A DNA stretch of 20,440 nt from positions 1 through 20,440 of the IMG/VR virus record IMGVR_UViG_3300030109_005233. One strand, written 5' to 3'. Source of the DNA: a virus. The position numbers were made by a program, and so were the translations under genes. Below are positions 488 to 10,405 of the stretch, piece by piece; the stretch's first letter is position 1, and every line of letters begins with the position of its first letter. Below the pieces are notes generated by a model. The model did not search any database. It was not told the origin of the DNA and saw only the letters and a program-made list of their open reading frames with translations.

Positions 488-854
488 GCCAAGCCGCACC
501 GGCAAGGACGACCAGCGACGAGCCACGGCGATCGCTGAGTCGTCGCCAGTGGCCTGGTCCACTGTTCGGGACCTGTACCCGTCCAACATCGCCGACGCTG
601 TTGACGATTTGGTGGGCCGTGGCGGTGTCTCGCTGCGTGACCTGTCGGCCCTGACGCTGGCACAGTTGCTGCGCGACCTAGAGGACCAGCAGGACGGGGC
701 AGACTTGCGCGCCGAGGTTAGCAGGCACCTGCGGCTGCTGTTCAGGATCTCGGTAGTGTCTGGCGGCATGGGTGACGGCAGCACGGTGCTGGTCCAGGTG
801 CCCGAAGGGCTGGGCCTGTTGCCTGACCCGGACGACGGGGATGAGCTACTGTGA
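480..854 (+). CDS. Unknown 124-aa protein between the terminase subunits
   Basis: I do not recognise this protein. It starts at GTG 480, overlaps the end of the small terminase by eight bases in another frame, and ends in a GTGA overlap with the large terminase gene. A longer reading from GTG 459 is possible but lacks a ribosome site. The sequence begins with a basic stretch (RPSRTGKDDQRR), continues as a probably helical middle (about 28-90) rich in Leu, Asp and Arg, and ends in an acidic tail (DPDDGDELL). Small size, predicted helices and location suggest an accessory packaging or DNA-recognition protein. That is inference from position only, and no catalytic motif is visible. Confidence 0.7.
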   Translation: MSRPSRTGKDDQRRATAIAESSPVAWSTVRDLYPSNIADAVDDLVGRGGVSLRDLSALTLAQLLRDLEDQQDGADLRAEVSRHLRLLFRISVVSGGMGDGSTVLVQVPEGLGLLPDPDDGDELL

Positions 855-2317
855 CGGAGCGCCGACGCTGGGATCAACTACGGCAGCAGCTAGGCGTCAC
901 GCAAGACCGCGCGGCCCTGGTTCGACTGCTGGCGGCCACCACCAATTACACACCGTTGCCGCACCAGGCCCGGGCGCACTTGGCGCACGTCCCTGACGGC
1001 ACAACGCAGAAGCTGTTTCTGGCGGGCATCGGCGCAGGCAAGACCGTCTGGAGCATGGCCGAATGCGTCATGCTGGCGATCGCGAACCCTGGCTGCCTGG
1101 GGGCCATCACGGCCCCGACATACGATCAGGTGGTCAACGTGCTGCTGCCCGAGTGGCAAGCGCTGACCGATGCCATGGCCGCCAACGGATACCCCCTGGT
1201 TCGTCGGTTCATCAAGAGCATGAGCGAGGCGCACCTGGTCTGCGGTGGTCGGGTGCTGTTTCGGTCGTTCGGGAAGGTGGACCACCTGCGCGGGTTCTCG
1301 CTGGCCTGGGCCGCGCTTGATGAGAGCGAAGTGAGCATGAACCCCGTTCAGGTCTGGGATGTGCTGCAGGGCCGACTGCGTGATCCCCGGGCCAACATGC
1401 GGCAAATTCACTGCACGACTACCCCCCAAGGATTGCGCGGGGTGCCCGCCATGTTTGTCGAGGCGCGCAATCGAGCTGCGGGCATACAAGACCCGATCGA
1501 GCGATCTGCAGCCCTGCGGCGGCACTGGTCCTGCACGGCAACCAGCCACCAAAACACGCACCTGCCTGATGGCTACATTGATGCCCTGTCTTCAACCTAC
1601 AGCAAGCGCCAATACGACCAGGAGGTGCTGGCGAAGATCCTTAAGCCGTCGACCGCAGTGTGGCCCGAGTTTAACAAGGAGGCGCATGTGCGCCCCTGGA
1701 CCTATGACCCCTCGCTGCCCTATGCGATCTCGGCGGATTGGGGGCACCAGTACCCGCACGTGCTTTGGCTGCAGCGTGCGCCCGATGACTCTTGGATCGT
1801 GTTTGATGAATTCTGCGACGACCAGATCCCGCGTGACCATCTGCGCTATGCAATCCGCGCACGGTGCGAAGCGCTGGGCAAAGACCCCGAGCACGCCGTG
1901 GGAGACCGGGCGATCAAGGATGAGATGGCGTGGTTGATACATCAGTTCCCCCGCACCTACGTCCACCGCATGAGGACCAAGCAGGAGCAAAGCGTTAACC
2001 GAGGGATCGAGGTCGTGCGAGCGTTGCTAGACCCGATCGAAGGCTCCCCGCGCCTGTATGTGTCAGAGCGGATCGGTGCTAGTCAGGCCAGGCGCGGTCT
2101 GATACGGTGCTTGCAGAATTACCGCTATAGGATGCGGGCTGACGGGGGGATCCACGTCGGCCAACCGTTCAAGGACAACGTGCACGATCATGGCGCCGAC
2201 TGCTTGCGTATGTTCGCGGTCGCAGTGATCGAGGGAGATGCCGGGGCCTTCTCGGCTGGGAGGGGAGAGCGTGGCCGCACCGCCAGGACTAAGGGACACC
2301 GGGTACGTCGTCGCTGA
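851..2317 (+). CDS. Terminase large subunit (ATPase-nuclease)
   Basis: Motor and nuclease of DNA packaging: the ATPase pumps DNA through the portal and the RNase H-like nuclease cuts the concatemer. The 488-aa length is normal. Walker A AGIGAGKT is at residues 58-65, Walker B LAWAALDESE at 151-160 (Asp157, Glu158), and a coupling motif HCTTTPQG at about 187-194. The nuclease half starts near 290 with ISADWG (Asp296). Further acidic candidates are Glu320 in VFDEF, Asp352 in VGDRA and Asp450 in DHGADCLRM, a usual two- or three-metal pattern. The C-terminus (471-488) is very basic. The gene starts at GTG 851, overlapping the upstream stop as GTGA, and its 3' end overlaps the portal gene. Confidence 0.95.
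   Translation: MTERRRWDQLRQQLGVTQDRAALVRLLAATTNYTPLPHQARAHLAHVPDGTTQKLFLAGIGAGKTVWSMAECVMLAIANPGCLGAITAPTYDQVVNVLLPEWQALTDAMAANGYPLVRRFIKSMSEAHLVCGGRVLFRSFGKVDHLRGFSLAWAALDESEVSMNPVQVWDVLQGRLRDPRANMRQIHCTTTPQGLRGVPAMFVEARNRAAGIQDPIERSAALRRHWSCTATSHQNTHLPDGYIDALSSTYSKRQYDQEVLAKILKPSTAVWPEFNKEAHVRPWTYDPSLPYAISADWGHQYPHVLWLQRAPDDSWIVFDEFCDDQIPRDHLRYAIRARCEALGKDPEHAVGDRAIKDEMAWLIHQFPRTYVHRMRTKQEQSVNRGIEVVRALLDPIEGSPRLYVSERIGASQARRGLIRCLQNYRYRMRADGGIHVGQPFKDNVHDHGADCLRMFAVAVIEGDAGAFSAGRGERGRTARTKGHRVRRR
2258..2267 (+). promoter_or_regulatory. Ribosome binding site deciding the portal start
   Basis: GGGAGGGGAG lies just before GTG 2271. The alternative in-frame ATG at 2238 has its purine run (GAGGGAG) immediately adjacent, too close for normal initiation, so GTG 2271 is preferred. 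Confidence 0.5.
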
Positions 2318-3704
2318 CGATGATCGCGCAGGCGGCGATCGCTGGCGCTCGCTAATCCGAGTCCTATACCAGTACCTTCGCCGTGACATGCGCGACGCTC
2401 GCGAGCAGCGCGAATTCTACTACCCGCGCACGCATCACAACCACATCCAGAAGACTGTGCCGCTTATCTTCAGGATCTCCCGCGAGCTGGCCACGTTGTA
2501 CGTCAGGCCGCCCGCTAGGGAATACCTGGGCGCGTCTCCAGCGGTGCAGGAGCGGATTGACTCGATCATGCGCGGCGCGCAACTTGACCGGGTGATGCGC
2601 ACAGCGCAGGAGCAACTGGTGGCGCTCGCCCAGTCTACGGTCTGGGTCTGGCCCGTGCCCGAGGTCGGGGGGGTTAGGCTGTTGACGCCACCTCCGCACG
2701 ACCAGGCGGTGGAGCTAACAGATCCCACGTCTTCATCGGAGCGCGACGTGAAAACGTGGTGGCTGCGCCTTCCCGTTGGCGAGGACGCTATGACTGGCCT
2801 GGTGTCCTATGCCACTGCGGAGGTGACAGCGGACACGGCGATCTGGATCGAAGGCCCCGACAACATGAAGGGCAAAGGCATCTGGGCCGAGGACGGCAGC
2901 AACCCGATCGGCAGGATTCCGGCTGTGCGACTGAAGGGTGCAGACCCCGGGCCTGGCGAATTCTGGTGCCCGGTGCCCGAGGACCTGCTGGACGCGCAGC
3001 GGGGCATCAACCACATGATGACCGACCTGGCCCTGGTGGCGCGGATGCAGGGCCACGGCCAGCCGGTCGTCAAGGGCATCAGCAACGTCGCAGCCGAAGA
3101 GATGGAGCTAGGCCCGGAATCGATTATCGGGCTGTCTGACACCGAGGGGGACTTTCGCTATGTGCAGGCGAACCCTGACCTTGCGGGGTACCAGGGCGTG
3201 CTGGACAACTACCTGCGCGCTGTGATCAGTACCAACGGGTTGAACCCCGCGACGGTGATCAAGAGCACGGCGATCACGGCCCTGGGCAAGCAGCTGGAGA
3301 TCTTGGATCGCGAGGTCGAGCGCAAGCGCCAGGTGGTCGAATTCGAGCGCGCAGAGCGCAGCATCTACAACATCACGCGCGGCTGGGTCAACTGGCTGCG
3401 AAATACGGAGTTGCTGCCCGACGCGCGGGTGGAGGTGACGTATAGGGATCACCCCATGCCAGCCGACCCGCTGCATGAGGCGCAGGCGATCAAGATGCTG
3501 ATCGAGATGGGCCTGACGACACCCGCCCGCGAACTGGCGAAGATGGAAGGCATCAGCGTCGAGGACGCGCGGGCACAGGTGGCCGAGATGATGGCCGAGG
3601 CAATCCCCGAAGGCTTCCACATGCACCCGGACGGCAGCATCATGCCCGACCCGCCAGACATGGCAGCAAACGAGCCCAAGATCCGGGAGGTGGGCAATGC
3701 CTAA
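2271..3704 (+). CDS. Portal protein
   Basis: Forms the dodecameric channel at the capsid vertex that binds terminase and later the neck. The best start is GTG 2271 (477 aa, beginning AAPPGLRDTGYV after the initiator); an in-frame ATG at 2238 would add 11 residues. Length and layout fit SPP1/HK97-type portals. An N-terminal helical region (REFYYPRTHHN) is followed by a beta-rich wing. The segment PEDLLDAQRGINHMMTDLA near residue 236 and the helix ITALGKQLEILDREVERKRQ near 333 match the stem/crown region of portals, where an 'ALxxLxxxLxxK' type pattern is common. It overlaps the terminase gene by about 47 bases and ends overlapping a 42-aa gene. The family call is firm, but the exact subfamily is not identified. 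Confidence 0.87.
   Translation: MAAPPGLRDTGYVVADDDRAGGDRWRSLIRVLYQYLRRDMRDAREQREFYYPRTHHNHIQKTVPLIFRISRELATLYVRPPAREYLGASPAVQERIDSIMRGAQLDRVMRTAQEQLVALAQSTVWVWPVPEVGGVRLLTPPPHDQAVELTDPTSSSERDVKTWWLRLPVGEDAMTGLVSYATAEVTADTAIWIEGPDNMKGKGIWAEDGSNPIGRIPAVRLKGADPGPGEFWCPVPEDLLDAQRGINHMMTDLALVARMQGHGQPVVKGISNVAAEEMELGPESIIGLSDTEGDFRYVQANPDLAGYQGVLDNYLRAVISTNGLNPATVIKSTAITALGKQLEILDREVERKRQVVEFERAERSIYNITRGWVNWLRNTELLPDARVEVTYRDHPMPADPLHEAQAIKMLIEMGLTTPARELAKMEGISVEDARAQVAEMMAEAIPEGFHMHPDGSIMPDPPDMAANEPKIREVGNA
3685..3690 (+). promoter_or_regulatory. Ribosome binding site of the 42-aa gene
   Basis: GGGAGG sits six bases before ATG 3697, within the last codons of the portal gene. It is the main evidence that the very short reading frame downstream is translated. 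Confidence 0.6.
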
Positions 3705-3825
3705 GCACTACAGCGGCAAGGGCCTAAAGACTGGCTATAAAGCTTCAGGCAAGCCGCGCAAGATTAAACGCGCAACGGTTGGCAAGACGCGTCCTGTGGC
3801 CCCCAAGAAGAAGGGCAAAAAGTAG
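3697..3825 (+). CDS. Very small basic protein (42 aa), hidden gene
   Basis: An unrecognised 42-aa protein starting MPKHYSGKGLKTGYK and ending in a KKKGKK tail. It has 13 lysines, 3 arginines and no acidic residue. The ATG has a strong GGGAGG site, overlaps the portal stop by eight bases, and its TAG ends one base before the next ATG, so it exactly fills an otherwise empty gap. Its KGLKTGYKASGKPRK region loosely echoes the VKGYNKPKRTPKH segment of the 96-aa protein at 4716-5006. Extreme charge suggests nucleic-acid binding, or packing beside DNA in the head, but no function is known to me. It is too short for most gene callers. Confidence 0.7.
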   Translation: MPKHYSGKGLKTGYKASGKPRKIKRATVGKTRPVAPKKKGKK

Positions 3826-3826
3826 C

Positions 3827-4495
3827 ATGTTTAAGCTGCGGACAGATGTGCAGTTTCACAACGCGATCCAGGAGAGCGAGCGCAAGATGCTGGCCCCGAT
3901 GGTCGAGATCGCGCAATTCGCCAGCTCGCTGGTGCTGCGTCGCGCGCCTAAGGGCATTGGCGCCGACAACTCACGCTTTTTGCCCTACGTGCACGCCCCA
4001 CGCGCTAACCTGCGAGGAGGTGGGGAGAAGACGGGGCATTATTGGGCGCCACCCGGCGAGCCCCAGCCAACGAAAAACAAGCTTTATACGGTGCGCGGGT
4101 TTGCGGTCTACAAGAGCTACAAGGCCTACAAAGCCGGCATGAATGAGCACACGCGCACCTACAACAAGACGGGCACGCTGTGGAGCAACCTGCGGGTGCG
4201 GTTAATGTCGCCGAGTAAGGCGCGCGTGCAGTTCGCCGGTCGCAACAAAAAGGGCCTGACAAACAACAGGCTTGCCAGGATCGTCACGCACAGGGAGCCG
4301 CGCAGCATTCTGGACCTGGGCACCAAGGAGACCAGCCGCGTCGCGCGGTTCGTTGCCGAGACCTTGCCGGCGAGCTACCTAGACGCTTTGAAGATCTCGG
4401 AAATGGGGTTCAAGGCGCGCAAGCAGTTGGCCACAGCGCAACGGCGGCTGAAGAAGGCGCAGCAGCTATTCGAGCAGGCCCGACGGGCCGTTTAA
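3827..4495 (+). CDS. Putative neck/minor head protein, HK97 gp10-like (tentative)
   Basis: A 222-aa basic protein starting at ATG 3827. An in-frame extension upstream would run through the 42-aa gene and is unlikely. Its middle has a pattern I associate with phage neck or tail-completion proteins: a GHYWAPPGEPQP segment, then YTVRGFAVYKSYKAYKAG (about 87-104), then YNKTGTLWSNLRVRL near 112 and a glycine/asparagine-rich turn. The last 30 residues form a basic probable coiled coil ending in LFEQARRAV. It sits directly after the portal and small basic gene, earlier than the usual place for gp10-like proteins, which is beside the tail terminator. It could instead be another minor capsid component. 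The role is inferred and weak; the coding status is clear. Confidence 0.45.
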   Translation: MFKLRTDVQFHNAIQESERKMLAPMVEIAQFASSLVLRRAPKGIGADNSRFLPYVHAPRANLRGGGEKTGHYWAPPGEPQPTKNKLYTVRGFAVYKSYKAYKAGMNEHTRTYNKTGTLWSNLRVRLMSPSKARVQFAGRNKKGLTNNRLARIVTHREPRSILDLGTKETSRVARFVAETLPASYLDALKISEMGFKARKQLATAQRRLKKAQQLFEQARRAV

Positions 4496-4496
4496 C

Positions 4497-4507
4497 AGGG
4501 AGGAGGG
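4497..4507 (+). promoter_or_regulatory. Strong ribosome binding site
   Basis: AGGGAGGAGGG, five bases ahead of ATG 4513, is one of the best Shine-Dalgarno matches in the window. It suggests a high initiation rate for the following 68-aa gene. Confidence 0.6.
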
Positions 4508-4512
4508 ACAGC

Positions 4513-4719
4513 ATGCCCAAGAAGAAGACAGCAAAGGCCGCGCCGCAGGATGTGGAGTTGCCCGAGGTGACACCGCTGGCACTGGGCCAGACCTACGCAA
4601 CCAGCGAGGCCGTGACAGCCGAGCAAGCTATGGAGAAGATCGCGGCGGGCTGGGTCCTGACGCAGAATGACAACGATCTGATCGTGGTGGCGTGTCCCTC
4701 GGAGATCTACGAGGCATGA
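4513..4719 (+). CDS. Small unknown protein, lysine-rich N-terminus (68 aa)
   Basis: An unrecognised 68-aa protein with a very strong upstream ribosome site. It begins MPKKKTAKAAPQ, a short basic tail, followed by an acidic-neutral globular part with helices (SEAVTAEQAMEKIAAGW) and a likely beta strand (NDLIVVACP). Its stop overlaps the next start as ATGA, so the two are probably translationally coupled. It is the second of four small proteins between portal and capsid that carry a lysine-rich segment. A virion or DNA-binding accessory role is plausible from context but not shown. No known domain is recognised. Confidence 0.75.
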   Translation: MPKKKTAKAAPQDVELPEVTPLALGQTYATSEAVTAEQAMEKIAAGWVLTQNDNDLIVVACPSEIYEA

Positions 4720-5006
4720 GTGCCAAGAAGGATCCAAGGCTAGCCCGTGCAGGCGTTAAGGGGTACAACAAGCCTAAGCGCACGCCCAAGCATGCTACAA
4801 AGTCGCACGTCGTGGTTGCCAAAGAGGGCGGCAAGGTCAAGACGATCAGGTTCGGCCAGCAAGGCGCAAAGACTGCAGGCCCGCCTAAAAAGTCGGACAC
4901 TGCAGCGGACAGGGCGAAGCGGGCAGCGTTCAAGGCAAGGCATGCCAAGAACATCGCCAAGGGCAAAATGAGCGCGGCCTACTGGGCCGATAAAGTTAAG
5001 TGGTAA
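4716..5006 (+). CDS. Small basic protein resembling a marine/cyanophage family (96 aa)
   Basis: A 96-aa, strongly basic protein starting at ATG 4716 in an ATGA overlap. An upstream in-frame GTG at 4692 is not needed. Recognisable segments are AGVKGYNKPKRTP (about 11-23), HVVVAKEGGKVKTIRFGQQG (about 30-49) and a C-terminus rich in Lys/Arg/Ala ending in KARHAKNIAKGKMSAAYWAD and KVKW. From memory this closely resembles a short conserved hypothetical protein found in many cyanophages and other aquatic phages, whose function I do not know to be established. The RFGQQG strand followed by the basic helix could bind nucleic acid. Neighbours are other small basic genes between portal and scaffold. The resemblance has not been verified by search. 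Confidence 0.75.
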   Translation: MSAKKDPRLARAGVKGYNKPKRTPKHATKSHVVVAKEGGKVKTIRFGQQGAKTAGPPKKSDTAADRAKRAAFKARHAKNIAKGKMSAAYWADKVKW

Positions 5007-5018
5007 CAGGAGGGAGTC

Positions 5019-5252
5019 ATGGCACCAGCAAAGAAAAAGACGGCAGCAAAGAAGGCGGCGAAGTCGCAGCCCCTTAAGGACAGCATCCAGCGCGTCCACG
5101 GGGCCACGGTTTTCACGATGCGCAACGTAGACGAAAAGACCGCGACCAGCCTTGTGGCTGATCATGGTTTTCGTCTAGGCCAGCGCACTGACGACGGCGC
5201 CACGCTGTTCGCTGACAAGGTGGCCTTTGATTCTTGGAAGGCAAACCCGTGA
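5019..5252 (+). CDS. Small protein with histone-tail-like N-terminus (77 aa)
   Basis: An unrecognised 77-aa protein with a good AGGAGGG ribosome site before ATG 5019. The first 17 residues are a Lys/Ala tail (APAKKKTAAKKAAKS) like those of histone H1-like or phage DNA-packing proteins. The rest looks globular, with an alternating strand-helix-strand pattern (VHGATVFTMRNV, EKTATSLVADHGFRL, GATLFADKVAFDSW). The stop overlaps the next start as GTGA. The tail suggests DNA or RNA contact; the folded part gives no clue. It is the last of the four small lysine-rich genes after the portal. Confidence 0.75.
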   Translation: MAPAKKKTAAKKAAKSQPLKDSIQRVHGATVFTMRNVDEKTATSLVADHGFRLGQRTDDGATLFADKVAFDSWKANP

Positions 5253-5857
5253 GCGCCGACAAGGGGATCGCGGGCGCCCCAGTTGCTGACCCTGTAGACA
5301 GCGCACCAGCGACAGAGTCTGTCGCACCAGTGCAGGCCGCGCCTGAGCCGCAGCAGATTGAGCTGCCGGTCATGGCCCAGCCGGCGCCAGCGGCGCAGGC
5401 CGTTCCAGTTGCGCCCGAGGCGCCAGCGCCGCCGAAGGCCAAGCCCGTCACAAAGGCGCAGCCGAAGAAGGCTGATACAGGCAGGATCGACGCCTTGGAG
5501 GAAAGGCTAGAGGCTGAAGTTGCCGCTATGGCCGAGGCCCGCGCGGAGTTGCAGGAGAGGGCGAGGCAGGAGCGTGACCGCGCCCGGCTTGCCTACTTGC
5601 GCGACGTTGGCGCTGTCACCTCCCTGCGCGACGATCATCTACTGGCGCTTGCGCCTGACTTTGATCCGACCACGGCAGACGGGCGTGTGGAGTTGGATCG
5701 ATGGCGTGAGCAAAACGCCACGCTGTTCGCGGGTCGCGAGATGACTGGCGTACAGGTAGCGGAACAGGTGATCAGCAACGTGCCCAGCAGCCAGCACGGC
5801 ACGTTTGGGCCTAGACTAGCGCAGAAGATCGCGCGCGAAGTGTTCGGAGGGAACTAG
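5249..5857 (+). CDS. Scaffold-like protein with disordered N-terminus and coiled coil
   Basis: A 202-aa protein starting at GTG 5249, overlapping the previous stop. A TTG at 5234 in the same frame is possible but unneeded. Residues about 1-77 are Pro/Ala/Val-rich and certainly low complexity (PVAPEAPAPPKAKPV is typical). Residues about 79-120 are a highly charged coiled coil starting RIDALEERLEAEVAAMAEAR, and the C-terminal 80 residues are mixed helical, ending in REVFGGN. Size, composition and position two genes before the major capsid fit a capsid scaffolding protein, which guides shell assembly and is then lost. No serine-protease motif is seen, so it is not obviously a protease-scaffold fusion. 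The assignment rests on architecture and location. Confidence 0.5.
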   Translation: MSADKGIAGAPVADPVDSAPATESVAPVQAAPEPQQIELPVMAQPAPAAQAVPVAPEAPAPPKAKPVTKAQPKKADTGRIDALEERLEAEVAAMAEARAELQERARQERDRARLAYLRDVGAVTSLRDDHLLALAPDFDPTTADGRVELDRWREQNATLFAGREMTGVQVAEQVISNVPSSQHGTFGPRLAQKIAREVFGGN

Positions 5858-5859
5858 AC

Positions 5860-6366
5860 ATGGCAAAGCAGAAGCCCCAGGCCGCGCCCAGCGGCAAGAT
5901 GACAGCATCCGACGCCGAGGCCCAGGCTGTGCTTAAAATGCAGAGCTGGATTGAGGAGGTCGACAGCGCCGAGCGCATGCAGGTCGGCACCTGGTACGAC
6001 ATACCCGACGCCTATAAACAGTGGCGTTTCATTCGCTGCGGCTTGCGCAACAGCGACCGCGCGATGGCTTTGCGCGCCAGCCTGATGCGTATGGGCTACC
6101 AGGACGCGCCCAAGGGCGTGCGGTGCTGCGGGTTCGAGAGCGACGGAGACCATGGGCTCTACGTTTGTGTGCCGGAGCAGGTGTGGATGGTTATCAAGGA
6201 TCGCAAGGAGCGCGCCCGCCGCAGCATGCACGACACGATCAGCAGCCAGATGAGCGCCGATCTCGGCGGTGGGATCTTGGGGCCTGGTAGTTCGATCCAG
6301 GTCACAGGGCAGACGCATACGGGCACGGCTCGGGACATTGTTGAGCACCTGCGGTCCAACAGCTAA
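5860..6366 (+). CDS. Unknown 168-aa protein upstream of the capsid gene
   Basis: I do not recognise this protein. It starts at ATG 5860 with a CGGAGGG ribosome site. The N-terminus is Lys/Ala/Pro-rich (about 1-15), followed by a helix (SDAEAQAVLKMQSWIEEV) and a compact region with TWYDIPDAYKQWRFIRCGLR. Next come an adjacent Cys pair (RCCGFESDGDHG) and a strand-helix LYVCVPEQVWMVIKDRKERARR. The C-terminus is Gly/Ser/Thr-rich. It sits between the scaffold-like gene and the capsid gene, where decoration proteins, head accessory proteins or maturation proteases are often encoded. No protease motif is visible. A head accessory role is inferred from position alone. Confidence 0.7.
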   Translation: MAKQKPQAAPSGKMTASDAEAQAVLKMQSWIEEVDSAERMQVGTWYDIPDAYKQWRFIRCGLRNSDRAMALRASLMRMGYQDAPKGVRCCGFESDGDHGLYVCVPEQVWMVIKDRKERARRSMHDTISSQMSADLGGGILGPGSSIQVTGQTHTGTARDIVEHLRSNS

Positions 6367-6420
6367 CCTCCTGACCCTGCTACGGTTTCAGGAAATTGCA
6401 CACGGCCCGATCTCGCTGTG

Positions 6421-6453
6421 GCAGGCTGTTGTCACGTAACTCAACAGGCCAGC
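6421..6453 (+). promoter_or_regulatory. Hairpin in the capsid-gene leader
   Basis: The gap 6367-6469 is the longest gene-free stretch in the window. It holds an inverted repeat: CTGTTG (6426-6431) pairs with CAACAG (6442-6447) across a 10-base loop, and the stem extends with GG/CC past one bulged base and GC/GC past an A-A mismatch. It ends seven bases before the AGGAG ribosome site of the capsid gene. No U-tract follows, so it is not a standard terminator. It could stabilise or process the capsid mRNA. I see no convincing promoter boxes here. Confidence 0.35.
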
Positions 6454-6469
6454 AACACCAGGAGCGATC

Positions 6470-7378
6470 ATGGCCCTTACAACCTCGAATGTGAAACGCA
6501 CAGCGGTCGAGGCCTTCTTTGAGGGCATGGCGATCGTTTCTGACAACTGGCGATCCTTCATGGACTTCCGCACCGACGACGTGCCTGCGCTGCGACTCGC
6601 TGCCATGACCGGACTTGGTAACTTTACGTCCTGGGACGGCGCCAGCGATCTCGGCATCGAGACGGTCGATCGGCCTGGCCACGACGGGGTCACCCTGTCT
6701 TACAGTCAGTACGGCTACCAGTGCCGGATCAGCAAGGCCGACGTGGCCGACGTGCCTGGCATCGTGGGAGAGGCCAGCAAAAAGATCGGCGTTAGCCTCG
6801 CCAACACGTATGCGAACCTCGCATACACCCGGCTGAATCTCGGATTCGGCGGTGGCTCCACGGTGGGATCGGGCAATCAGATGTTTAGCCCAACGCACAC
6901 GCGGGCCTCTGGCACTCGCTCGAACCACACGAGCAGCGCGCTGGATCGGTCTTCGTTCATGGCGGCGATTACGGCTTACCGGGGATGGACCAACTATCAG
7001 TCCCAACCGTACGATCTGACCGCTGGCGGCTTCTGCCTTGTCGTGCCTCCCGCGCTGGAGGAGACGGCCAAGCAGATCGTGCGTTCGCCGTTTGCGCTGA
7101 CCACTGTAGCGTCTGCAGGAGCCCCCGCCCAAGGCGAGAGCAACATTGCAGGAGACTACGGCACCGAGGTCGTCGTGAGCCCCCACCTGACGGATGCCAA
7201 CAACTGGTTTCTGATGAGCAAGCTGGAGCGTACGATCAAGATCTGGGAGCGCTTCGCCCCCTCGATCGCCACTACGATCGACGAGGACGACAAGCGGGTG
7301 AAGATCTCGGTTGACTTCGCGCTGGCTACTGGCGTTAACGCGCAGCCTGATGGCGCTTATGGCGCCGAGGTCTCCTAG
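6470..7378 (+). CDS. Major capsid protein (HK97 fold, Mu gpT-like)
   Basis: Main shell protein, 302 aa, with an AGGAG ribosome site five bases before ATG 6470. The overall pattern fits Mu gpT-like HK97-fold major heads. An N-terminal helix region (VEAFFEGM) is followed by the glycine/aspartate-rich E-loop area (about 50-75: GNFTSWDG to VTLSYSQYGYQCRIS). A spine helix follows (EASKKIGVSLANTYANLAY, about 103-121). The central strand-helix LVVPPALEETAKQIV (about 196-210) is highly typical of this group. C-terminal P-domain strands include GTEVVVSPHL and VKISVDFALATGV. No N-terminal delta domain of the HK97 kind is evident, consistent with a separate scaffold gene upstream. It should be the most abundant product here. 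Confidence 0.85.
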   Translation: MALTTSNVKRTAVEAFFEGMAIVSDNWRSFMDFRTDDVPALRLAAMTGLGNFTSWDGASDLGIETVDRPGHDGVTLSYSQYGYQCRISKADVADVPGIVGEASKKIGVSLANTYANLAYTRLNLGFGGGSTVGSGNQMFSPTHTRASGTRSNHTSSALDRSSFMAAITAYRGWTNYQSQPYDLTAGGFCLVVPPALEETAKQIVRSPFALTTVASAGAPAQGESNIAGDYGTEVVVSPHLTDANNWFLMSKLERTIKIWERFAPSIATTIDEDDKRVKISVDFALATGVNAQPDGAYGAEVS

Positions 7379-7396
7379 CCTAAAGGATGACACGCG

Positions 7397-8296
7397 GTGG
7401 CACTGGAACTGATACAAGACACGGCGGCACCCGTGGCGTTTACGCCTACGGACCTGCCGGCGCGTCCAGCCAGTGCCACCCTGTCGTTCAAGGCCCCGGG
7501 TGGTGACGAGAAGGCCACGCCTAGCGTGACCGTCTCCACCGTCGGGGCTGGCGGGTTTGCCACTGTTAGCTCAGTCACATCGCAGACAAGCATTGCTGTT
7601 GACAACGCTACGGGCATCGCGCCAGGGGCGCAGGTCTGGGCCGAGACGACAGACGGATGGAAGGGCGCAGTGCGGATCAGCGAGGCTACAGGCACCGCGC
7701 TGATCCTTGAGTCTGCACCACCAGGCACCATCACAACAGCTACAAAGCTGTACGGCCTGACCCTAACAGCGACGATCCCAGCGGATGCCACAGGCACGCG
7801 GGACGCGCACTATCGTCTCGACTGGACGATCACCGATGGCGACGGTGTAGCCCACAAGCGCAGGCAGATGGCCCACGTCTGCGCTATGTCCTTTCGAGAC
7901 CCCCTCACGAGCGACGAGGCTGCGCGCTACATGGCCGCCACCTTTCCCGGGTTTGCGGCTGGCCTAGATGCCGGCCACTTCCGCGAGTTGGCGCGTAGGT
8001 CATCGAGCCGCGTGCGCAGGCTGCTGCAGAGCACCGGTAACTACCCCCACCTAGTTGGCGACCAGGACACGTTTATAGACGCGGGCCTGACTGCGTTACG
8101 GCTGGAGCTGGCCCTGGGCGATGGCCTAGTGCCTGCGGGGTACGACCCCAGCACCTACGTCAACGACCAGGACAGAGCGCTGCGCAAGGCTGTGGCCGAG
8201 GCGGTGGCGTCTAACTGGGTCGATCGAGACGATGATGGCAGCGTAGACCCCGACGACGTGCGCCCGCTGTTCACGCTGCGCGCTGTGCGGGCGTGA
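7397..8296 (+). CDS. Probable head-tail adaptor with beta-rich N-terminal extension and EF-hand-like loop
   Basis: A 299-aa protein starting at GTG 7397, with AAAGGATGA upstream. It appears to be two parts. Residues about 1-163 are beta-rich and Ig-like, containing a TSIAVDNATGIAPGAQVW module (about 64-81) and ending in a sandwich strand region (YRLDWTITDGDG, RRQMAHVC). Residues about 166-299 are helical and resemble gp6/gp15-type head-tail adaptors, which plug the portal: TSDEAARYMAATFPGF, RRSSSRVRRLLQ, AGLTALRLELALGDG, ALRKAVAEAVASNWV. Near the end, DRDDDGSVDPDD (276-287) has Asp at positions 1, 3 and 5, Gly at 6, Val at 8 and Asp at 12, a good EF-hand calcium loop. Position right after the capsid gene and before the tail terminator supports the adaptor call. 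The fusion is inferred. Confidence 0.5.
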   Translation: MALELIQDTAAPVAFTPTDLPARPASATLSFKAPGGDEKATPSVTVSTVGAGGFATVSSVTSQTSIAVDNATGIAPGAQVWAETTDGWKGAVRISEATGTALILESAPPGTITTATKLYGLTLTATIPADATGTRDAHYRLDWTITDGDGVAHKRRQMAHVCAMSFRDPLTSDEAARYMAATFPGFAAGLDAGHFRELARRSSSRVRRLLQSTGNYPHLVGDQDTFIDAGLTALRLELALGDGLVPAGYDPSTYVNDQDRALRKAVAEAVASNWVDRDDDGSVDPDDVRPLFTLRAVRA

Positions 8297-8715
8297 GGTC
8301 TTCCGGTGTCAGATCCGCGATCGTGTCCGTCGTGGAAGGTGCTTCCGTCGATGCAACTGCCGGGGGCCGTGACAAGTTTGTCCACGTCGACACCGGGGGG
8401 CGCGAGCTGGAGCAGGCCCCGGATCGAGTGTTCCGCGCTACGCTTACGCAACCCCCGCGTCGCACCAACTATCTCACGCTCGACGCCTATGTGGTCGAGT
8501 ACACGGTGGATCTGTACTACACACCGACCAAGCAGGTCGAAGACCGCATTGCGGCAGACTGCGAACAGGTCTCTTATGACCTGGCAACGCTCAATCAGCA
8601 GGATGCCGAGATCATGGTTGCCGAAGTCCAGAGCGGATCTGTGCTTGAACTGGACAACCTGCTGGTCGCCCGCATCCCTGTCCTTGTCACCTACCGCCTT
8701 ACAGGAGTCACCTAG
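8293..8715 (+). CDS. Probable tail terminator/completion protein
   Basis: A 140-aa protein starting at GTG 8293 in a GTGA overlap. Tail terminators such as lambda gpU cap the tail tube and join it to the head. The sequence shows an alternating beta pattern (DKFVHVDTGG, RVFRATLTQPP, TLDAYVVEYTVDLYYTP), a helix (KQVEDRIAADCEQVSYDLATL) and final strands (LVARIPVLVTYRLTGV). This matches the strand-strand-helix-strand layout and size of the gpU-like family. It lies between the adaptor and the tail tube gene, its usual place. No signature residue is decisive, so the call rests on fold pattern, length and synteny. Confidence 0.55.
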   Translation: MRSSGVRSAIVSVVEGASVDATAGGRDKFVHVDTGGRELEQAPDRVFRATLTQPPRRTNYLTLDAYVVEYTVDLYYTPTKQVEDRIAADCEQVSYDLATLNQQDAEIMVAEVQSGSVLELDNLLVARIPVLVTYRLTGVT

Positions 8716-8717
8716 CC

Positions 8718-9962
8718 ATGGCATTTTCACAGAGTAACATCGGGCGCGTTCGCCTCGGCAAGCAGACGGCATGGAACAACGCCACGCCCAGCCCCTCATT
8801 CAGCGATATTCACGTGGTAGAGGCCGAGGTGTTCTTGCCAGAGCTTGCGACCGAGGTGCTATCAACTGACGCCATGCGCGGCAACTACGCTGCGCGGCGA
8901 ACTGTAGACGGCGGCAAAAGCAACATTCCGGTCAGCCTGCGGATGCCTTTGCACGGGTGGAGCGCAACGGCGCCATCAAGCGATCCGACCGCGTCAAACC
9001 AGCACCCGGATGCTTTGATCCTGGAGTATGCGCTGGGGGCGGCCAGTTACGTTGCGGGCGTCGGCAGCGTGACGCACAGCAGCGCCGGCACGGCAGCGGC
9101 CACCGTTTACGCTTCCGGCGATGCGATCAGTGAAGGCAAGGCGGTCCTTGTTCCAATCAGCGCGACCACTTACGGCATTGGGTGGGCGCGTGACGTGGCA
9201 GGCGATACCTGTGCTTGGGCGTGTGAGCTTCCGAGCGCTGCCCATGCGTCTACGAACTGCAAGGGCGCGTTGCTGCAAACCATGTCAACAGCCAGCCCTG
9301 CGACCGGCCTGGTGATGCACTACCAGGGCCAGGACTCGAACACCGACATCACCCTAAGCAACGGCATGGTGACGAGCGCCAAGATCATCATGAATCCAAA
9401 CGCCCAGCCTATGCTGGAGGCTGAACTGGTGTTCGGCGCCTGGGCTCTGGGCACCAGCGGTGCGCCTGGGCTCTATGAGTACACCCTGCCCCAGTTGCCT
9501 GTCGCAGTCGGCAACAACGGCGCACGGCTCTGGGTCGGCGGCGACGGCGCTGGCGGTGGCGCGCTGAACGCCAGCGTGTTCACGGTGGAGCTTGATCTGT
9601 CGGTCGAGTACCAGCCCGTTCTGGGACACAGCGCTGCCGAGGGAATCAGCCAGTACATCGTCACCAACAGGGACGCGACGCTGACGATCACCGAGCCCAC
9701 TACGCACGCATACAACGACATGAACGTGGCAGGCGGCACGTCTGTCGGGTCAATTCAGGTTGATCTGTGCACGACGCCGGGCCGCGCGTTCTCCATGCTG
9801 CTGCCGTCTGCCGTGCTGGAGAACACCCGCACCCTGGGAGATAACAACGGCGTCGTCGGCACAACGAGCGTCTACAAGGCGGGCTACTATGACAACGACG
9901 GGAGCGACAGCGCAGTGGGCACGGCGCCCGCCGATACCATTGTCCGCACGGCGTTCCTCTGA
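8718..9962 (+). CDS. Major tail tube protein (probable)
   Basis: A 414-aa protein starting at ATG 8718, two bases after the previous stop, with AGGAG upstream inside that gene's end. The opening GRVRLGKQTAWNNATP, the segment after it leading to LSTDAMRGNYAARR, and the strand NIPVSLRMPLHGW match the N-terminus of siphovirus tail tube proteins, which polymerise into the hollow tail around the tape measure. The rest is almost wholly beta, rich in Gly, Ala, Ser and Thr, with strands such as GMVTSAKIIMNPNAQPMLEAEL and NRDATLTITEP. It is longer than simple tube proteins, which suggests an extra surface domain, perhaps in the 100-200 region with few helices. Location before the chaperone and tape measure genes fits well. 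Confidence 0.65.
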   Translation: MAFSQSNIGRVRLGKQTAWNNATPSPSFSDIHVVEAEVFLPELATEVLSTDAMRGNYAARRTVDGGKSNIPVSLRMPLHGWSATAPSSDPTASNQHPDALILEYALGAASYVAGVGSVTHSSAGTAAATVYASGDAISEGKAVLVPISATTYGIGWARDVAGDTCAWACELPSAAHASTNCKGALLQTMSTASPATGLVMHYQGQDSNTDITLSNGMVTSAKIIMNPNAQPMLEAELVFGAWALGTSGAPGLYEYTLPQLPVAVGNNGARLWVGGDGAGGGALNASVFTVELDLSVEYQPVLGHSAAEGISQYIVTNRDATLTITEPTTHAYNDMNVAGGTSVGSIQVDLCTTPGRAFSMLLPSAVLENTRTLGDNNGVVGTTSVYKAGYYDNDGSDSAVGTAPADTIVRTAFL

Positions 9963-9968
9963 TACCTT

Positions 9969-9986
9969 GGGGCGCACAGCGCCACC
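9969..9986 (+). promoter_or_regulatory. Short hairpin between tail tube and chaperone genes
   Basis: GGCGC (9971-9975) and GCGCC (9979-9983) form a 5-bp stem over a three-base loop. A further GG/CC pairs past a bulged A. It lies directly before the ribosome site of the next gene and has no U-tract, so it may damp read-through or mRNA decay rather than terminate. The evidence is weak. Confidence 0.25.
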
Positions 9987-9998
9987 AGGAGGAGGAGG
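9987..9998 (+). promoter_or_regulatory. Repeated strong ribosome binding site
   Basis: Four tandem AGG units (AGGAGGAGGAGG) end two bases before ATG 10001. Several registers can pair with 16S rRNA, so strong initiation of the chaperone gene is expected. Confidence 0.6.
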
Positions 9999-10000
9999 TT

Positions 10001-10405
10001 ATGCTGCCATTGATTCAGGTGCGGGACACCATTGCGGTGGTCTGCACAACAGATCCGTCTGTGAAGTGCACCAACGGCGAGAGGTCAGTGCCGACCTGGA
10101 AGTCGGCAGACAGCACCCGGCACAACAAGGACAGTCTGGTTGTGACCGTGCGGCCACTGTCTTCGTCGGAGTTGCTGCGGTGCCAGGGGTTTCTTGGAGG
10201 GGGCGCCGACGACCAGGCGGTGCTTACCGTACACGCCGCGAAGGCGGGCACGGTCAAGATCGTTGGCCCGGACATCATGTGCGAGACAACCGAGCAGATC
10301 GAGGACCTGCTGGAGCGTCTACAGCCGGGAGAGCTGGCGGCCCTTGGCGGGTACGTGCTGACGCAGAGTCTGACAACTGCGGACCCTACCAGCGCCACCG
10401 ACTAA
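10001..10405 (+). CDS. Tail assembly chaperone, first part (gpG-like)
   Basis: A 134-aa protein between tail tube and tape measure, where tailed phages encode the G/GT assembly chaperones that hold the tape measure during tail assembly. The sequence starts MLPLIQVRDTIAVVC, has a beta-rich first half (SLVVTVRPLSSSELLR), then helices (TTEQIEDLLERLQPGELAALGGYV) and a short Thr-rich tail before TAA. An exceptionally strong ribosome site precedes it. The following open frame is in -1 relation, as needed for programmed frameshifting. I see no canonical slippery heptamer near the end, so frameshifting is possible but unproven. The family assignment is by synteny, length and weak pattern, not by a signature motif. 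Confidence 0.55.
   Translation: MLPLIQVRDTIAVVCTTDPSVKCTNGERSVPTWKSADSTRHNKDSLVVTVRPLSSSELLRCQGFLGGGADDQAVLTVHAAKAGTVKIVGPDIMCETTEQIEDLLERLQPGELAALGGYVLTQSLTTADPTSATD

Follow-up and report, generated by a model that had tools for sequence, protein, structure and literature searches.

The virus sequence IMGVR_UViG_3300030109_005233 from IMG/VR (20,440 bases, analysed at its full length and called the window below) raises the question of what a group of small genes between its portal-like and scaffold-like genes contributes to the virus. A preliminary description had recognised open reading frames (ORFs) on the plus strand for proteins of 42, 68, 96 and 77 amino acids (aa), here named p42, p68, p96 and p77 after their lengths, and had proposed that they form a set of internal head proteins or packaging factors not known as a described system. 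The four reading frames are indeed present between these two genes, where they had been placed, but the four small genes are no four-protein system. The functional lead comes from a single one of them: at a probability of roughly 55%, we read p96 as a portable prohead-interior module that works alone beside the portal, scaffold and capsid genes.

p96 is a homologue of the DUF5754/Tlr6F superfamily

The remark that no such set is described needs correcting, as p96 corresponds to phrog_7595 in PHROGs v4 (E-value (E) 8.6e-40, residues 2-96 of 96). This family of unknown function, to which the database assigns no role, is matched along the full-length p96 sequence and by all 37 members of alignment A1. 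It is moreover homologous to a named, uncharacterised family, DUF5754/Tlr6F. Against the Pfam profile DUF5754 (PF19058), p96 itself scores 12.6 bits and stays under the cut-off of 27.4, and 21 of the 37 A1 members match at E<=10 (best E 0.017). A search of 37 genomes or records with this profile yielded one match over the cut-off, a 97-aa protein from an Opitutae bin (L244) that adjoins a terminase-like ORF, the latter assigned by reading. The Opitutae protein reaches 44.1 bits with DUF5754 and is 40% identical to p96 over 83 aa (E 1e-15), and 16 of the 30 members of its own alignment A5 match DUF5754 as well (best 9.4e-15). Compared as profiles with hhalign, alignments A3 (65 sequences, a few fused copies included) and A5 (30 sequences, after L319 had been dropped for an internal stop) pair at 99.4% and E 3e-21. 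The sequence comparisons strongly support p96 as a DUF5754/Tlr6F superfamily homologue by way of the Opitutae protein; its own score does not place it in the Pfam family.

DUF5754 is identified with the Tlr6F family in a passage of PMC12220804. Tlr6F in turn is equated with OLV2 in excerpts of PMC3671162 and PMC4642659, which describe it as small and uncharacterised and as occurring in polinton-like viruses (PLVs), virophages, giant viruses and some phages; the excerpt of PMC4642659 specifies nearly all PLVs, several virophages and many giant viruses. The likeness between p96 and DUF5754/Tlr6F/OLV2 is that of small stand-alone viral proteins of unknown function, whereas p96 carries a K-S-H motif that the members of A5 lack.

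The domain is fused to head proteins

In ICP1 ORF125, an XkdF protease domain (PF14550, residues 36-160, E 6.6e-10) is followed by a p96-type domain (residues 184-261, phrog_7595 at 5.8e-11; profile A3 against A4 97.6%, E 4e-12). ORF125 also matches the head maturation protease family phrog_3017 (6e-13), is annotated as capsid protease in many ICP1 records and lies in a gene run comprising terminase, ORF127, ORF126, ORF125, ORF124, head decoration and major head protein. The C-terminal ~80 residues of this XkdF-type capsid protease are therefore the p96 domain, whereas p96 has no protease domain of its own (no Peptidase_S78_2 match). Between ICP1 and its counterparts in Vibrio phages P018-4 and 1.101.O and in two Aeromonas phages (L237-L243 in all) the order is swapped, the domain standing ahead of the protease in the Vibrio and Aeromonas proteins. 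Within the protease-fusion subfamily in IMG/VR, 8 of the 27 loci are fusions, two with the protease first (L333, L334) and six with the domain first (L335-L340). A further head partner is found in gp012 of Aphanizomenon phage CL131, in which portal (60-419), p96-type domain (about 534-604), InPase (631-752) and MuF (991-1103) follow one another; the combination portal-domain-InPase was present at 7 of the 80 IMG/VR loci of that search.

Besides, the domain occurs in large open frames at nine loci. It is joined to SLT (2.3e-22) and ART-PolyVal (5e-7, just under the cut-off) in L144 and to PcfJ in L165, and takes an internal position beside PcfJ and ART-PolyVal (under the cut-off) in L166; the remaining six (L163, L164, L168, L169, L173, L203) had no Pfam family above the cut-off. 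L159/L160, L161 and L162 encode the domain as a gene of its own, the stop of which touches or overlaps the beginning of a transglycosylase frame, a split form of L144. The domain is thus a module of proteins with ART-PolyVal, SLT, PcfJ and InPase, as known from the phage polyvalent proteins, which are proposed to be packaged and injected in an excerpt of PMC5512222; the p96 domain is not named in that excerpt. Polyvalent proteins need at least two disparate domains, and p96, as a single 96-aa domain, is not one of them. In all nine large fusions the last Trp of the domain is directly followed by [A/S/N]-[E/D]-G-G, and the same Y/F-A-E-G-G run recurs between later segments; L144 has 8 [ED]GG where its composition predicts 1.2. 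This run could act as a linker or mark a site of processing.

Since the domain is repeatedly attached to prohead proteins, namely the protease, the portal and proteins proposed to be packaged and injected, it is best explained as a docking module for the prohead interior. Such a module would bring a protein inside the prohead, close to portal, scaffold or DNA, where the docked protein would take part in head maturation or stay with the packaged DNA. Fused to a capsid protease, a portal or a polyvalent-type protein, it would act in cis. A stand-alone copy such as p96 would be drawn in by the head partner that the fused forms also use, and its role would be that of a small internal head protein or of an assembly factor beside the scaffold.

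Predicted fold, charge and a probable specific partner site

With the 65-sequence alignment, AlphaFold2 gave a p96 model with a mean predicted local distance difference test (pLDDT) of 90.1 and a predicted template modelling score (pTM) of 0.78; a first model from 29 sequences had been poor (pLDDT 55). The predicted fold consists of a helix (7-12), a beta hairpin (29-37/40-48) and two further helices (63-81 and 87-94). No fold match was found in the PDB, the best Foldseek hit having E 1.6 and none of 115 chains reaching Z>=2 in VIA-align. Against a viral library, Foldseek gave 10 matches at E<=0.001, and weaker matches at probability 1.00 included an XkdF-annotated protein, ICP1 ORF125, a 1393-aa protein and the Tunisvirus protein V9SE36 (E 6.6e-3). 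A CeV-01B match had E 0.11 and probability 0.91, and after rank 19 there is an abrupt rise in E to 1.4. The Tunisvirus and CeV-01B proteins are known here by this Foldseek pairing, Pfam membership aside. A kinship to the 9euf 'baseplate component' and plastid L24 was rejected, as the profile E of 0.06-0.77 (A3; also tried with A1) came with loose alignments. A catalytic function was likewise discarded, the His of an R-H pair being Phe in ICP1 and Met in CL131. Across 22 diverse members, V33, G47, R75 and W90 are invariant and N18, P20, K29, F46, F72 and W96 nearly so.

The foremost, though doubtful, alternative to a docking module is that p96 binds or condenses DNA as an internal protein, its basic surface neutralising or organising packaged or entering DNA and the fused domain tethering its partners to DNA. 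The stand-alone forms are in fact very basic, with a median net charge of about +19 in both A3 (65 sequences) and A5 (30 sequences), and p96 is as strongly basic (net +22, isoelectric point (pI) 11.1) as is expected of internal DNA-condensing head proteins. Independence of host and capsid type, with carriers linked to alpha- and gammaproteobacteria, cyanobacteria, Bacteroidota and archaeal bins, would suit a universal ligand such as DNA, and N-terminal nucleic-acid-binding 'header' domains are proposed for polyvalent proteins in the excerpt of PMC5512222. However, the charge is not conserved. Protease-linked copies of the domain carry +5 to +13 (ICP1 +5, Aeromonas +5) and the portal-linked copy of CL131 +7, while the aromatic/Gly/Arg core is retained. 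As the invariant residues are kept while the net charge falls, a specific partner site is the likelier conserved function than bulk charge. Furthermore, the PDB search did not pair the p96 model with any DNA-binding fold.

p96 is a mobile single-gene cassette, probably of late gene modules

p96 is shared by a great number of unrelated phages. Homologues were found in 43 of 50,697 phage records (48-77% identical), and relatives in at least 596 IMG/VR stretches, the best 80 of which are 71-81% identical to p96; counts from such collection scans are lower bounds. Scanning one genome per species for 84,980 species gave 62 p96 loci, all in metagenome-assembled genome (MAG), bin or uncultured single-cell records and none in a record titled as a cultured isolate, which fits lytic phages better than prophages. 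Among the loci of the analysis, L159/L160 share an identical stretch, and the pairs L138/L140 and L139/L141 each seem to be one contig assigned to two bins.

The neighbourhood was compared at 122 loci at which both neighbours were callable; a further 29 were dropped because p96 had escaped the simple gene caller, and fusion loci, loci with several hits and those with short flanks were omitted. A same-strand gene lies upstream of p96 in 118 and downstream in 104 of the 122, and the neighbours belong to 85 unrelated clusters on the upstream side and 83 on the downstream side. Small basic proteins (<=120 aa, net >=+10) are encoded upstream at 28 and downstream at 31 loci, and thus make up 59 of 244 neighbours, compared with 192 of the 1879 remaining called genes (odds ratio 2.8 and p 1e-8 by Fisher's test, with loci that are not independent). 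The earlier notion of small basic companions hence holds as a tendency around p96 in other phages, although the partners differ each time. Recurring families of small Lys-rich proteins adjoin p96 (L008, L023, L025, L027, L031, L009, L024, L045 and others). The neighbour in L025 has a weak DUF5872 match (E 0.001, under the cut-off), and an excerpt of PMC12085832 lists DUF5872 together with DUF5754 for the giant virus CpV-BQ1.

The nearest relative of the window, IMGVR_UViG_2802429390_000033 (loci L082, L153 and L154 are this one record), is alignable with window positions 714-10013 (85-89% identical DNA). The alignment consists of two blocks and omits exactly p96: window 714-4714 corresponds to L154 1-3991, and window 5008-10013 to L154 3989-8988. 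In the relative, p68 and p77 adjoin directly, with overlapping stop and start codons (TAATG); in the window, p96 lies exactly in between. As the relative is without exactly this gene, p96 is a single-gene insertion or loss. From the presence and absence in this pair of records together with the diversity of neighbours, p96 is a horizontally exchanged single-gene cassette. In five records found via the capsid protein, p96 was present in none (0/5), but the empty answer of that search shows little.

Such a clean difference between close relatives is also what a moron-like single-gene cassette displays, and p96 might accordingly be a late host-takeover or anti-defence protein among structural genes, with the polyvalent-type fusions serving effector delivery. 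The almost complete lack of conserved neighbours and the polyvalent-type fusion partners agree with this explanation. It leaves unexplained, however, why the domain is joined to the capsid protease on either side and inserted between portal and InPase. In addition, p96 lies on the same strand as the late genes, and the occurrence of the family in eukaryotic viruses, as reported in the excerpt of PMC4642659, argues against a bacterial target. We therefore judge a moron function to be unlikely.

Fourteen annotated records with p96-type proteins were inspected for context. The layout of the window, i.e. a small gene, p96, a scaffold-size gene and a capsid-size gene, is common to KBS-S-2A, S-H1 and MED4-184. 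The order is p96, putative scaffold, coat in S-H1 and portal...p96, a 226-aa protein, major head in KBS-S-2A, and the genes of MED4-184 are unnamed. The gene preceding p96 in KBS-S-2A (L089:7753-7974) encodes a TUDOR-like domain (Hva1_TUDOR E 1.4e-9). Elsewhere, p96 is found amid P22-like tail-accessory and stabilisation genes (MW202867), about 2.5 kb past the capsid gene (S-CBS2), a few genes ahead of it (CRP-810), upstream of portal and scaffold (C72C1), upstream of the terminase (MW202701, HMO-2011), at or close to the point where a same-strand run ends (ICBM2, SIO1, D274) or near the lysozyme gene (S-EIV1, S-CRES1). As far as annotation shows, the contexts of p96 are late or virion modules, with the portal only sometimes nearby. 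Judging from strand and context, p96 is probably expressed late.

Several observations weigh against a prohead-interior module. A close relative does without p96, so that p96 is not essential to this head type. Nor does every context adjoin head genes: Zobellviridae, S-EIV1, S-CRES1 and CRP-810 have the gene at the end of the late genes or by the lysozyme gene, and the DUF5754-type copy of the giant phage NCTB lies near a transcription factor and a thymidylate kinase. Fusions are a minority, with 19 of the 27 and 73 of the 80 loci in the two sets carrying the stand-alone form. Moreover, the C-terminal parts are partly related among several of the nine large polyvalent-type fusions, which therefore represent few events and are not all independent. 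Finally, the searches brought up no evidence from virion proteomics, binding assays or genetics on any family member, and open-licence full-text literature held nothing usable on the virion proteomics of p96 carriers.

The other small genes do not form a set with p96

The small genes are no uninterrupted cluster, since a gene for a basic protein of 222 aa (p222), missed at first reading, separates p42 from p68. The description as mostly lysine-rich suits p42 and p96, which are strongly basic, and to a lesser degree p77, while p68 is acidic (net -5, pI 4.4). The Lys/Ala-rich tails of p68 and p77 do exist, but they are N-terminal. Common KG-YK/NKPKRTPK-like segments were rejected as motifs of the four proteins by a shuffle test, as the number of shuffles (of 2000) that equalled or beat the real pair was at chance level: 375 for p42-p96, 606 for p42-p68, 1384 for p42-p77, 1028 for p68-p96 and 981 for p96-p77. 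The exception is p68-p77, with 18 of 2000 shuffles as good; both proteins start with a Lys/Ala-rich run.

The search for relatives answered for p96 and for none of its companions: p42, p68, p77 and p222 had no homologue in the 50,697 phage records (p42 searched to E<=10), p68 matched no protein family in a family-profile search, and NCBIfam gave no match for the six proteins tried. Relatives of the portal and of p222 were present in one IMG/VR record only (L082/L154), the single close relative to which p42, p68 and p77 could be traced as well. The basic protein p222 is known only from the window and L154. Compared with this one close relative, the ratios of non-synonymous to synonymous substitution rates (dN/dS) indicate purifying selection on p42 (0.15), p222 (0.08), p68 (0.21) and p77 (0.11), p96 not being comparable in a relative that lacks it.

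The same relative shows that the small genes are no conserved unit: it keeps p42, p222, p68 and p77 without p96. That the four proteins cooperate as one internal-head set is thus very improbable, even though the genes are adjacent, two of the four products are basic and small basic neighbours are enriched around p96 in other phages, because the relative largely refutes the set, the other members lack phage homologues and p68 is acidic. What endures of the internal-head-protein idea is confined to p96, whose family is linked to heads by fused forms with a capsid protease, a portal or a polyvalent-type protein as partner, and does not extend to the four jointly.

Locus layout

The genes around p96 are listed in Table 1. 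The start of p96 lies inside the p68 stop (ATGA), and its end precedes a ribosome-site-like AGGAGGG ahead of p77. The scaffold-like gene is also kept in L154. The frames of TerL and portal overlap by 80 bases (2238-2317), so that the true start of the portal may be downstream.

Table 1. Genes of the window from the portal-like gene to the major capsid protein gene
Feature	Position	Strand	Remarks
Portal-like gene	2238-3704	+	phrog_104, E 6.6e-8
p42, 42 aa, Lys-rich, net +16	3697-3825	+	71% identical in L154, dN/dS 0.15
p222, 222 aa, basic	3827-4495	+	pI 11, net +28; 93% identical in L154
p68, 68 aa, acidic, Lys/Ala-rich N-terminus	4513-4719	+	Stop overlaps p96 start
p96, 96 aa, stand-alone DUF5754/Tlr6F-superfamily domain	4716-5006	+	phrog_7595, net +22, pI 11.1
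p77, 77 aa, Lys/Ala-rich N-terminus, net +6	5019-5252	+	
Probable scaffolding protein	about 5249-5857, GTG start assumed	+	phrog_1793 head scaffolding, E 0.003
168-aa gene	5860-6366		Between probable scaffold and capsid protein genes
Major capsid protein	6470-7378	+	PF25209 Phage_capsid_4, E 4e-12

Implications for the Tlr6F family

At least since 2013-2015, Tlr6F has figured in print as small, uncharacterised, shared by many DNA viruses and 'suggestive of an important role' (excerpts of PMC3671162 and PMC4642659), and we found no link of the p96/Tlr6F family to head proteins in open-licence full text. The novelty is accordingly the functional lead from the fusions, while the family itself is already known. 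Fusions to the protease in two orders, to the portal and to polyvalent-type proteins give Tlr6F a specific and testable prediction, the prohead interior, and the Synechococcus phages S-H1 and KBS-S-2A, Lentibacter phage ICBM2 and Celeribacter phage P12053L are known as cultured phage carriers of p96. Only tentatively do we extend this lead to the Tlr6F/DUF5754 domain at large, as a portable capsid-interior targeting module of tailed phages, giant eukaryotic viruses, virophages and polinton-like viruses. If this is true, one packaging tag would be common to otherwise unrelated virus realms.

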